This document shows, piece by piece, positions 30,401 to 33,964 of a DNA stretch of 34,767 nt (within the stretch, counting starts at the first letter, position 1; every line of letters begins with the position of its first letter). A program made the translations under genes and the position numbers. The DNA comes from Chitinophagales bacterium (GTDB lineage Bacteria; Bacteroidota; Bacteroidia; Chitinophagales; Chitinophagaceae): NCBI GenBank assembly GCA_015654695.1, contig JAATGJ010000157.1, forward strand, positions 1 through 34,767, in the 5' to 3' direction. The notes beneath the pieces are model-generated. The model saw only the letters and a program-made list of their open reading frames with translations. It had not been told where the DNA came from and did not search any database.

Positions 30401-31894
30401 ATGCCACATTTTATTCTTGCCCTTGACCAGGGTACTACCAGCAGCCGCAGTATGTTGTTTGATAAACAGGGCAACATCATCAGCGTGGCGCAAAAAGAAT
30501 TTAAGCAGATATTTCCTGAGCCGGGTTGGGTGGAACATGATGCGGAAGAAATATGGAGTACGCAATATGGTACGATGGCGGAAGCGGTGGCGAAAGCCAA
30601 TATCACGATGCGGCAAGTGGGGGGTATCGGCATTACCAATCAACGCGAAACGACAGTAGCATGGGAACGAAGCTCCGGCAAACCTGTTTACAATGACATC
30701 GTATGGCAGGACAGGCGAACAGCGGCCTATTGCGATGAATTGAAATCGGCAGGTAATGCCCAAATGATCCAGCAAAAAACAGGACTGATCATTGATGCTT
30801 ATTTCTCCGCTACCAAATTGAAATGGATACTAGATAATGTTCCGGGAGCAAGGAAGAAAGCAGGTAACGGTGAATTAGCATTCGGCACTATTGATACCTG
30901 GCTGGCATGGAAACTATCGGGAGGTGAATTGCATGTAACCGATGTGTCCAATGCATCGCGGACCATGTTGCTGAATATCCACAGCTGTGAATGGGATGAA
31001 GAATTATTAACGTTGTTTGATATTCCAAAAAATTTATTGCCGGAAGTAAAACCATCCAGCAAGATATATGGAACAACAGGAAGTTTTGTTCCTGATTCAA
31101 GGATACCCATTGCAGGGATCGCGGGTGATCAGCAGGCTGCTTTATTCGGGCAACTGTGTACGCAACCCGGTATGGTAAAAAATACGTATGGTACCGGTTG
31201 CTTTATGCTGATGAATACGGGTGAAAAAGCGATCACATCAAAAAATAATTTGCTGACAACTGTCGCCTGGAAAATAAATGATAAAGTAGAATATGCGCTG
31301 GAAGGAAGTGTCTTCATTGCTGGTGCAGTAGTACAATGGCTGAGAGATGAATTAAAGATCATCCGCAAATCCCCGGAGATAGAAAAATTATCACAGCAGG
31401 TGCAGGATACGGATGGCGTATATATTGTTCCGGCCTTTGCTGGTCTCGGTGCGCCACACTGGAATCCCTATGCAAGAGGAACGATATTTGGATTAACAAG
31501 GGGAAGCAACAATGCGCATATTGCAAGAGCCGCATTGGACAGTATCGCTTACCAGGCTTATGATGTGCTGAAAGCGATGGAAGCTGACGCCGGTATCAGT
31601 ATTAAAGAATTAAGGGTGGATGGCGGCGCTACTGTCAATAACCAGTTGATGCAATTTCAAAGTGATATACTGAATTGTAAAGTGGTGAGGCCAACAATAA
31701 CGGAGACCACTGCATTAGGAGCAGCCTACTTAGCAGGACTAGCTGTTGGATACTGGAAAAATATTGATGACATACAGGAACAATGGCAGGTGGACCGGAC
31801 TTTTTCTCCGGTGATGGACGAAGAAAAAAGAAAGAATTTGTTATATGGATGGCAACGAGCAGTGAAAGCTGCAATAAGCTGGGCGAATGGCTGA
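30401..31894 (+). CDS. glpK: Glycerol kinase
   Basis: The 497-residue FGGY-family kinase phosphorylates glycerol to sn-glycerol-3-phosphate. The N-terminal ATP/substrate region ([16 protein letters not shown]), the glycerol-binding [13 protein letters not shown] and IVWQDRRTA segments, and the C-terminal [20 protein letters not shown] and [13 protein letters not shown] motifs are all intact. Length matches the E. coli enzyme (502). It is the first gene of a glpK-glpD-glpF operon. The TGA stop is followed after one base by the left arm of the GxxExxY unit, which separates it from glpD by 570 bases. Confidence 0.97.
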
Positions 31895-31895
31895 T

Positions 31896-31936
31896 TTTTT
31901 CAACACAGAGTATAATGAGGTAAAGAGTTACACAGA
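31896..31936. repeat. Left inverted arm of the GxxExxY unit
   Basis: TTTTTCAACACAGAGT (31896-31911), 13 bases, then GAGTTACACAGA (31925-31936). Both blocks recur as reverse complements, with the same 13-base spacing, at 32424-32463. The arm begins two bases after the glpK stop codon. Confidence 0.8.
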
Positions 31937-31950
31937 GATAAAATTCAGGT

Positions 31951-32358
31951 ATGATAATAAAAAATGAAATCTGGTATAATTCTATAACTGAAAAAATCAT
32001 TAAGGCTGCTATTGAAGTCCATAGAGAGCTCGGGCCTGGTTTGATGGAATCGGTCTATGAGGTTTGCTTAAAAAAAATAATGAAAGATGAAGGATTGTTT
32101 GTCAAAAACCAGGTTATTCTTCCGGTCATATTCAAAGGCGTACAGTTAGAAAAAGAGTTTGCCCTTGACCTTATAGTGGAAGACGAAATTATCCTCGAAT
32201 TAAAGTCTGTCGAAGTCATACTGCCCGTTCATGAAGCGCAACTGGTTACTTATCTTAAATTATCCGGCAAGAAACTTGGTTTGTTAATCAATTTTAATGT
32301 AGTACTGCTAAAGGATGGAATCCGCAGAAGAATTAATGGTAAATTAAACCCTGTATAA
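31951..32358 (+). CDS. GxxExxY protein (PDDEXK_3, predicted PD-(D/E)xK nuclease fold)
   Basis: The 135-residue protein has the family motif G30-L-M-E33-S-V-Y36. The core of a PD-(D/E)xK-type site is also present: Asp73 (FALDLIVEDE) and Glu83-Leu-Lys85 (IILELKSVEV). So a metal-dependent nuclease activity is possible, although no member is known to me to have a defined role. Length is typical (about 120-140). It lies between glpK and glpD, has nothing to do with glycerol, and is bounded by inverted arms. Its last 14 codons are duplicated just downstream. The context is that of an inserted cassette rather than an operon gene. Confidence 0.9.
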   Translation: MIIKNEIWYNSITEKIIKAAIEVHRELGPGLMESVYEVCLKKIMKDEGLFVKNQVILPVIFKGVQLEKEFALDLIVEDEIILELKSVEVILPVHEAQLVTYLKLSGKKLGLLINFNVVLLKDGIRRRINGKLNPV

Positions 32359-32390
32359 CTCATATCCTCTGTAACTCCGGATTAAAAAAA

Positions 32391-32432
32391 GGAACTCGCA
32401 GAAAAATTAATGGCAAACTAAATTCTGTGTAA
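32391..32432 (+). pseudogene. Orphan tail of a second GxxExxY gene
   Basis: The segment reads GTRRKINGKLNSV then TAA, against GIRRRINGKLNPV at the end of the intact gene. Four of the seven changed codons are synonymous, and the other changes are conservative or mild. It is the remnant of a lost second copy, or a tail carried in by an insertion. Confidence 0.75.
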
Positions 32433-32463
32433 CTCATACTACTCTGTAACTCTGTGTTGAAAA
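32424..32463. repeat. Right inverted arm of the GxxExxY unit
   Basis: TCTGTGTAACTC (32424-32435), 13 bases, then ACTCTGTGTTGAAAA (32449-32463). It is the reverse complement of the left arm in both blocks and ends two bases before the glpD ATG. Confidence 0.8.
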
Positions 32464-32464
32464 T

Positions 32465-33964
32465 ATGAACAGAACACGAATGATACAACAACTTGAATCC
32501 GCTACTGAGTGGGACATCTGTATCATTGGTGGGGGCGCCACCGGCTTGGGTACAGCCGTTGATGCGGCAACAAGAGGATTAAAGACTGTTTTATTCGAAC
32601 AACATGATTTTGCCAAAGGCACTTCTTCCCGCTCTACCAAATTAGTGCATGGCGGCGTTCGCTATTTACAACAAGGCAATATCAAACTGGTGATGGAAGC
32701 TTTGAAAGAAAGAGGATTACTGATAAAGAACGCCCCGCATTTAGTACACAATCAAAAATTTATTGTTCCCAATTATAAATGGTGGGAAGGTCCTTTCTAT
32801 GGAATTGGTTTGAAAATTTATGATTGGATGGCAGGTAAGTTAGGATTAGGACCGTCCCAGTTTTTATCCAAAGAAGAAACATTGGGATTAGCGCCAACTC
32901 TCGATCCGGAAGGATTAAGAGGAGGCATTGCTTATCATGACGGACAGTTTAATGATGCAAGGCTGGCGATCAACCTGGCGCAAACCGCCGCATTGCACCA
33001 TGGCACATTACTGAATTATTTCCCTGTAACAGGATTATTAAAAGTGAATAAGAAAGTTTGCGGTGTGCAGGTAAAAGATTTTTTTACCGGGAAAGAATAC
33101 GCGGTAAAAAGCAAAGTGGTCATCAACGCTACCGGGGTTTTTACCGATGCGGTGATGAACATGGATGATCCGAAGCACAAGCAAATGATCTCGCCCAGCC
33201 AGGGGATCCATTTAGTGGTGGACAAAGAATTCCTTCCCGGCAATACGGGCATCATGATACCAAGAACGGATGATGGCAGGGTATTGTTTGCGGTGCCCTG
33301 GCATAATAAAATTGTATTGGGAACAACTGATACCCCGGTAAAAACAAAAGATCCTGCATCGCTGCTTGAACCGGTACCATTAAAAGGAGAAATTGATTTT
33401 ATCTTATCACATATTGGCCGCTATCTTTCAAAAGACCCTCAACTAAGCGATGTCAAAAGCATGTTCGCGGGACTAAGACCACTAGTGAAAGGAAGCAGTA
33501 AGAAAACGGCGGCATTATCAAGGGACCATTTAATTACAATAGCTGAGTCAGGTATGATCACCATTACCGGCGGCAAATGGACCACCTACCGGAGAATGGC
33601 GGAAGACGTAGTGAAAATCGCTATAGAAAAAAATGGGTTGCCGGATAAAATCTGCATCACGCAGGAACTAAAACTATACGGACATGACCAGCCGGCTGTG
33701 CCGGCTGAAATTTTTCAATTAACAACAGAAGAATTAAAAGCAGTCATTACAACATCCGTTGAAAAAGAAATGTGTATGACCGTAGAAGATTTTCTCTCGA
33801 GAAGAACAAGAAGCCTGTTGCTGGATGCCCAAGCAACTATTGCATCCGCGCCATTGGTAGCGGAGCTGATGGCAGCAGCCATGAATAAAGATGAAGCCTG
33901 GATAAAAGAACAAATAAATATCTTTAATTTAATCGCCAAAAACTATCTTCCCACTTCAAACTGA
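32465..33964 (+). CDS. glpD: Glycerol-3-phosphate dehydrogenase, FAD-dependent
   Basis: The 499-residue membrane-associated flavoprotein oxidises glycerol-3-phosphate to dihydroxyacetone phosphate and passes electrons to quinone. The FAD-binding N-terminus (DICIIGGGATGLGTAVDAATRG), the GTSSRSTKLVHGGVRYLQQG segment, VVINATGVFTDAV and the C-terminal ITITGGKWTTYRRMAEDV are intact. Length agrees with bacterial GlpD (about 500). Its ATG directly follows the right arm of the GxxExxY unit, so its ribosome-binding region is built from the inserted sequence. It is followed by glpF with a six-base gap. Confidence 0.96.
   Translation: MNRTRMIQQLESATEWDICIIGGGATGLGTAVDAATRGLKTVLFEQHDFAKGTSSRSTKLVHGGVRYLQQGNIKLVMEALKERGLLIKNAPHLVHNQKFIVPNYKWWEGPFYGIGLKIYDWMAGKLGLGPSQFLSKEETLGLAPTLDPEGLRGGIAYHDGQFNDARLAINLAQTAALHHGTLLNYFPVTGLLKVNKKVCGVQVKDFFTGKEYAVKSKVVINATGVFTDAVMNMDDPKHKQMISPSQGIHLVVDKEFLPGNTGIMIPRTDDGRVLFAVPWHNKIVLGTTDTPVKTKDPASLLEPVPLKGEIDFILSHIGRYLSKDPQLSDVKSMFAGLRPLVKGSSKKTAALSRDHLITIAESGMITITGGKWTTYRRMAEDVVKIAIEKNGLPDKICITQELKLYGHDQPAVPAEIFQLTTEELKAVITTSVEKEMCMTVEDFLSRRTRSLLLDAQATIASAPLVAELMAAAMNKDEAWIKEQINIFNLIAKNYLPTSN

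Follow-up and report, generated by a model that had tools for sequence, protein, structure and literature searches.

In a Chitinophagales genome, the gap between glpK and glpD is filled by a gene of the GxxExxY family, a predicted nuclease, enclosed between two inverted arms. We think it reasonably probable (roughly 60%) that this is a compact intergenic mobile element comparable to a REPtron or REPIN, or a long-settled copy of such an element, in which the arms serve as ends at the DNA level. Across the family, the two arms of a copy match each other and differ from those of other copies, they travel with the gene, they are absent from empty sites, and they also occur alone. Overall, the cassette appears to belong to a kind of small mobile DNA that has received little description. 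Below, "the window" means the whole stretch of 34,767 nt in which the cassette was first noticed.

The cassette between glpK and glpD

The features of the window cassette are collected in Table 1. In the left arm and in the right arm alike, exact blocks of 15 and 12 nt are separated by 13 nt, and throughout the arms a GAG/CACAGAG word recurs about every 8-9 nt. Given where the glpK ORF ends and where the glpD ATG begins (one base past the right exact block), just two bases and one base, respectively, lie outside the exact blocks. An earlier reading, made from the letters of this stretch without database searches, had described a predicted PD-(D/E)xK gene of the GxxExxY type between glpK and glpD, bounded by inverted blocks with equal 13-nt spacing and filling the gap, and this description was confirmed. 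The window also has a tandem duplication (32309-32438) that spans the 3' end of the gene and the beginning of the right arm; it was not seen by eye in the orthologues L026 and L031.

Table 1. Features of the cassette and its neighbors (positions in the window)
Feature	Position	Strand	Evidence and remarks
glpK, upstream neighbor	30401..31894	+	TIGR01311 751 bits, NF000756 842.5 bits; stop codon adjoins left arm
Left arm, outer to inner	31894..31936	+	Exact blocks TTTTCAACACAGAGT (31897-31911) and GAGTTACACAGA (31925-31936); local alignment with right arm, score 23
GxxExxY gene, 135 aa, PD-(D/E)xK nuclease superfamily (predicted)	31951..32358	+	TIGR04256 141.5 bits (curated cut-off 35), PF13366 137.8 bits (curated cut-off 22)
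Tandem duplication, copy 1 (gene 3' end and right-arm start)	32309..32364	+	Repeat search: 80% identity, 74 nt spacing
Tandem duplication, copy 2, running into right arm	32383..32438	+	Repeat search: 80% identity to copy 1
Right arm, inverted relative to left arm	32424..32466	-	Inverted copies of GAGTTACACAGA (32424-32435) and TTTTCAACACAGAGT (32449-32463)
glpD-like FAD-dependent glycerol-3-phosphate dehydrogenase/oxidase	32465..33964	+	NF033461 283.5 bits (below cut-off 840), PF01266 194.5 bits, PF16901 42.6 bits

In the profile search, matches of the window protein were confined to PF13366 and TIGR04256, both above their curated cut-offs, with no HUH Y1 (IS200-like) or other transposase family. 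Among 71 aligned GxxExxY sequences (rows with stops were left out beforehand), G28, E33, Y36, K85, and Y101 are invariant, and D73, E83, and Q97 are present in 90% or more. The conserved set corresponds to the residues that define the PD-(D/E)xK core fold (D73 as the catalytic D, E83 and K85 as the E-x-K), together with a Q-x3-Y motif, which we take to resemble that of RecB and Cas4 nucleases. A structure model of the window protein (pLDDT 93.7) has as its top Foldseek match 4ic1 (SSO0001; E 3.9e-4, TM-score 0.42-0.52), presumably a Cas4 and the sole match at E ≤ 0.001. Lambda exonuclease and an alkaline exonuclease follow, at TM-scores of about 0.4-0.5. The modeled fold is nearest, if weakly, to Cas4 and lambda exonuclease, and no sequence relatives of the protein were found in the PDB up to E 1. 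Taken together, the conserved catalytic residues and the modeled fold make it likely that the GxxExxY product is a nuclease, as predicted. Incidentally, a role in anti-phage defense was considered and rejected, given that the defense search yielded just a weak match to a Cas4 model (E 0.022). One excerpted account places a GxxExxY gene beside a reverse transcriptase, where cas4 was expected (PMC8934634).

The history of the site was followed through GlpD, which has matches in 41 of 59 genomes (this one and its relatives). Among the 30 of these loci that were read, 15 have glpK immediately upstream, and just three of the 15 (from this genome, G005, and G002) have the GxxExxY gene. Tight junctions that lack the cassette were found in L030 (three bases from the glpK stop to the glpD start) and L033 (nine bases); the sequence-only reading had suggested a test of whether the site is empty in sister strains. 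Further relatives have glpK-glpD spacers of varied length. In one related genome (L029), a gene-less inverted arm pair with period 7 and a score of 22 is present at this junction, and a short period-7 stretch occurs there in L028. The GxxExxY gene is also located between glpK and glpD in L084-L086. Among the glpK-glpD orthologues, pS is 0.78-0.82 (near saturation) and pN is 0.09-0.14, values that represent four distinct comparisons because L026 and L085, whose arms are identical, give equal values. Among these orthologues, the arm words can still be recognized. Near-saturated pS, low pN, and recognizable arms together indicate that the glpK-glpD copy in this genus is old and has been kept, under what the substitution pattern marks as purifying selection.

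Matched inverted arms across the family

We assembled 119 GxxExxY loci from this genome, its relatives, and public genomes, of which 117 have at least 150 nt of flank on each side (113 after removal of four duplicate rows). For the 117 loci, the mean inverted-flank score is 19.6, compared to 10.7 for mismatched left/right pairs, and 63 loci lie beyond the 95th percentile of the mismatched pairs (38 beyond the 99th). In direct orientation, 21 of the 117 are beyond the 95th percentile as well, an effect due at least in part to whole hairpins within some flanks. Inverted flanks with a score of at least 17 were found at 75 of the 113 GxxExxY loci (38 score lower) versus 5 of 332 control ORFs (other ORFs of the same loci and of the window), and two of those five proved to be PF13366 genes. 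The specific arms of the window did not recur: at up to two mismatches, a 17-nt pattern close to these arms has a single match in the genome, located in the window, a 601-nt stretch of the window also gave one match, and most cassettes use another word. Thus, the expectation that GxxExxY genes are repeatedly bounded by arms holds for arms of their own, at the 75 loci just noted, and fails for the arms of the window.

Counted over clusters, the commonest words are of the CRCNNAG type (CACAGAG with 85 occurrences, CACAAAG with 61, CGCAGAG with 60, CGCAAAG with 50), and CACGGAT is among the further, cassette-specific arm words. The spacing between words is most often 9 nt (102), then 8 nt (45), and the outer end of an arm tends to read TTT, one base, A, C or A, and then the word. 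Word clusters were found in both arms at 48 of the 113 loci, in one arm at 30, and in neither at 35. When both arms have them, the modal word is shared in 28 of 48 cases, versus 14% for cross pairs. Over GxxExxY flanks as a whole, the excess at lag 9 is weak (0.309 vs. 0.277), and lags 1 and 2 show one that is at least as strong. The stop codons of neighboring genes that face an arm are often very close to it, 41 of 94 being no more than 10 nt from the outer arm end, so exact filling of the gap is common.

Gene and arms recur together at sites with unrelated surroundings. Flanks were considered unrelated if they lacked blastn or tblastx similarity from 120 nt outward, and a laxer test gave the same trend. 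Between such sites, the median similarity of same-side arms is about 9 when the proteins are <50% identical and rises to 18 for 30 pairs with 75-80% protein identity and to 24 for 9 pairs with 80-85%, although many of the high-identity pairs involve one small cassette clade and so are not independent. One pair counted as unrelated, L101 and L102 (92% identical), shows similarity that extends past the arms and may well be one site. For comparison, the left and right arms of one copy have a median similarity of 17 (in 120 nt), and the same-side arms of cassettes with 70%-80% identical proteins are similar to about the same degree (median 15.8). On a quick tree of 67 proteins, of which the 51 with common words were used, the arm words change 20 times in 51 rows, whereas 300 shuffles gave 29.2 changes on average and never fewer than 24. 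In combination with the arm comparisons, the tree test indicates that the words go with the protein, that changes of word are frequent, and that the two arms of a copy tend to have the same word.

Other sites, empty sites, and arms without a gene

GxxExxY is present in 42 of the 59 genomes (0-14 matches per genome) and occurs under record titles from many phyla, and its cassettes were found at many junctions besides glpK-glpD. TIGR04256 matches this genome at 14 places, of which several are fragmentary or contain stops, and the four-helix-bundle family TIGR02436 matches it at eight. Inverted arms are present at many of the flanks of both, with words that vary from copy to copy, and 7 of the 10 tested GxxExxY loci of this genome score at least 17 (L004, L009, and L011 are below). 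The copies in pieces or with stops are L007, L010, and L012-L015; the first of these retains 24-nt exact arms despite the damaged gene copy.

Two further sites were compared with those of relatives. The L003 site is nearly empty in G005 (L244) and G001 (L245), where the flanks are 19 and 12 nt apart, respectively, and in G002 (L243) and G006 (L246) it holds gene-less arrays of short words, with the strongest period at 8. The L008 cassette has an orthologue in G003 (L255; 78% over gene and flanks), parts of it match two contigs of G005, and its site has short spacers in G006, G004, and G002. The pairs of empty and occupied sites are too diverged at the join for a target-site duplication to be resolved. 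Recent transposition was not seen for any gene-bearing copy. A candidate case (L160/L161) was rejected, as it is one 6,369-nt repeat, identical throughout, with pattern hits at a constant 701,564-base offset. At L160:2900-3900 (Sporomusa sp. KB1), a full cassette is followed by tandem gene-less mini copies, and, by eye, an apparent start of the gene is still present in the first of these. Carriage by phages was considered and rejected: the phage collection gave no match, and of 57 pattern matches in viral contigs, one was confirmed. Plasmid matches come from eight records. Empty junctions, matched arms at about two-thirds of loci (75/113), and the presence of gene and arms at unrelated sites support the proposal that this is a self-contained intergenic cassette with no known transposase.

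Arms can also be found without the gene. In Sporomusa sp. KB1, a search for ACCGCAGAGACACAGAG at up to two mismatches gives 29 matches, versus 0 for the reversed pattern. Because 28 of the 29 form 14 pairs at the constant offset of 701,564 bases, these correspond to 15 distinct places; at several, the arms form a short, hairpin-like pair that encloses no gene. Four (L201, L205, L210, and L214; one on contig C1 and three on C2) are copies of one gene-less element, 81%-95% identical over 73-145 aligned positions, and among the matches listed there is no longer match between their surroundings. Gene-less arm pairs have multiplied in this organism. The sequence-only reading had counted arms without the gene as evidence against a cassette; such arms do exist, but they fit a mobile element with miniature derivatives.

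We also scanned the window and 20 stretches of this genome (20 kb each) for inverted pairs within 900 nt of each other. The scan gave 10 pairs at a score of at least 18 (vs. 0 in one shuffle) and 22 at a score of at least 17 (vs. 2), in a sample that is neither neutral nor family-independent, as the stretches are from contigs with known GxxExxY or four-helix matches. Five of the top 10 pairs can be named (the window cassette, the L008 cassette, a RAYT-like unit, a CACGGAT pair, and a heptamer-like pair) and five cannot. For pairs up to about 230 nt apart, 16, 12, and 5 real pairs score at least 16, 17, and 18, respectively, compared to 3-5, 1-3, and 0-2 in each of five shuffles at the same distance. 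The CACGGAT pair (score 21, 92-nt gap) is gene-less, and there are weaker word pairs in the sampled stretches, with scores of 16-18, that are individually uncertain. The RAYT-type unit, whose recovery is a useful positive control, comprises an IS200-like/RAYT-type gene of 188 aa between inverted palindromes (L228:3294-3992). Its Y1_Tnp match (E 2.3e-4, 21.7 bits) is just below the cut-off of 23, and the gene-less CACGGAT pair and a GxxExxY cassette are located about 1.4 and about 3.5 kb away from the gene, respectively.

The four-helix cassettes have the same layout as the GxxExxY cassettes, with an unrelated protein and no nuclease. The TIGR02436 loci (L017-L024 and L164-L192) have inverted arms of 7-nt words (TTAGGCT, AGTTATA, GGATGTT, and others), and 27 of 37 are beyond the 95th percentile of mismatched pairs in inverted orientation, versus 3 of 37 in direct orientation. 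Their flanks have a period of 7 (0.374 vs. 0.282 shuffled), with further peaks at 14 and 21. In addition, a 113-aa ORF (L076:2692-3033) is located near strong inverted flanks with AATCATGA words (L076:2575-3100; score 31). This ORF has no Pfam match and is possibly another cargo family.

What may move the cassettes, and how they relate to known elements

If the cassette is a mobile element, each arm would be, in essence, a few copies of a short word that the encoded predicted nuclease recognizes and cuts as a DNA end, and the nuclease may itself move the cassette. The gene-less arm pairs would then be derivatives that the nuclease moves now or moved formerly, much as REP and REPIN sequences probably relate to RAYT transposases.

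The main rival is that the arms are mobilized by other machinery, either host repair or a RAYT-type transposase of the same genome, and that the GxxExxY gene came to lie between them as cargo or as a processing factor. Arm pairs that lack a gene and the RAYT-type gene between inverted palindromes in this genome are consistent with this, and the idea stays alive because four-helix cassettes share the layout and theirs is no nuclease family. However, the arm words track the GxxExxY protein tree, and the arm grammar is specific to the cargo (period 7 for four-helix genes, mostly 8-10 nt for GxxExxY), which points to recognition by the encoded protein; we consider the rival unlikely. That the arms are fixed regulatory or chromosome-organizing sites (for autoregulation, insulation, or termination), with the cassette as a stable intergenic gene, we judge to be quite improbable. 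The purifying selection on the gene fits this explanation, as do arms that can be recognized in glpK-glpD orthologues although synonymous sites are near saturation, but it must contend with the existence of empty sites, the patchy number of matches per genome, the occurrence of gene and arms in unrelated surroundings, and the dispersed gene-less copies.

An element that acts at the RNA level, with arms that base-pair once transcribed and serve as an RNase III substrate, is brought to mind by the 23S rRNA intervening sequence of Coxiella, which has a four-helix ORF and a 28-bp stem formed from terminal inverted repeats (PMC4990558, in excerpt). In the case studied here, the site is between protein genes, and GU-type mismatches between arms are not in excess of AC-type mismatches (117 vs. 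143 at 75 GxxExxY loci; 36 vs. 43 at 29 four-helix loci), so there is no sign of a selected RNA stem, and this explanation is very improbable. Finally, the suggestion that the protein is a homing nuclease specific for the glpK-glpD junction accords with the conserved nuclease residues and with the existence of empty sites. It is left without support because the cassettes sit in many other junctions, while the gene occurs in few of the glpK-adjacent GlpD loci; moreover, the same junction has a different, gene-less arm pair in L029. We give it hardly any credence.

The preferred reading, a mobile or long-settled cassette with arms as its ends, invites comparison with known elements. MITEs and simple insertion sequences also have inverted ends and gene-less derivatives, but the cassettes have no matched transposase family, and their ends vary between copies in one genome. 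RAYTs are HUH Y1 transposases, and in this the REPtron (RAYT/TnpA-REP) differs from the cassette, for which a PD-(D/E)xK nuclease is predicted. The cyanobacterial STRR repeats can be mentioned alongside these as short intergenic repeats. In several respects the REPtron, as described in excerpts of PMC3116915, is like the cassette. It links one gene to short intergenic repeats, these form inverted-repeat doublets that are also found apart from the gene (as are the gene-less arm pairs), and groups of repeats are tied to particular proteins (as are the arm words). An inverted-repeat-flanked gene with gene-less doublets elsewhere, by which a REPtron can be recognized, is also what is found for GxxExxY. 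However, a REP is itself a palindrome (PMC3116915, in excerpt), whereas an arm of the cassette consists of word iterations, with one end of the cassette inverted relative to the other.

The 23S rRNA intervening sequence with an S23/four-helix ORF is like the cassette in having a small ORF between terminal inverted repeats, and it has been discussed as a possible remnant of transposition, but it is located in rRNA, is removed as RNA, and involves another protein family (excerpts of PMC4990558). Intergenic iterations of 7-nt words include TAACTGA in Beggiatoaceae (PMC4679880) and the GGGAATC type in Xanthomonas and Nostoc, some of which form inverted pairs in Xanthomonas (PMC4692102). In the excerpts of these two papers, the heptanucleotide repeats are not tied to a gene family, whereas here period-7 arms flank four-helix genes. 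The GxxExxY family is named in just two papers of the literature searched, and a link of GxxExxY or four-helix genes to such arms was not found among the matches listed (most subscription journals and bioRxiv fell outside the scope of the search).

More tentatively, and at a little under even odds, the cassettes could represent a class of transposase-free mobile intergenic elements that includes at least two unrelated families (the GxxExxY nuclease and the four-helix bundle), each with its own arm grammar, in which the word of both arms is rewritten together. Joint rewriting would imply that some unknown arm-copying or recognition step keeps the ends of a copy matched.

Through its link to inverted iterated arms, GxxExxY, a widespread family, gains a role that can be tested, and the cassettes give a set of short intergenic repeats a possible origin. 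They may represent a second route, beside that of the HUH transposases, by which a single small enzyme can spread paired repeats. Arms that are matched yet ever changing pose a puzzle that is directly testable. If the idea of a wider class of cassettes is true, it would also explain many of the heptanucleotide and CACAGAG-type intergenic repeats of bacterial genomes.
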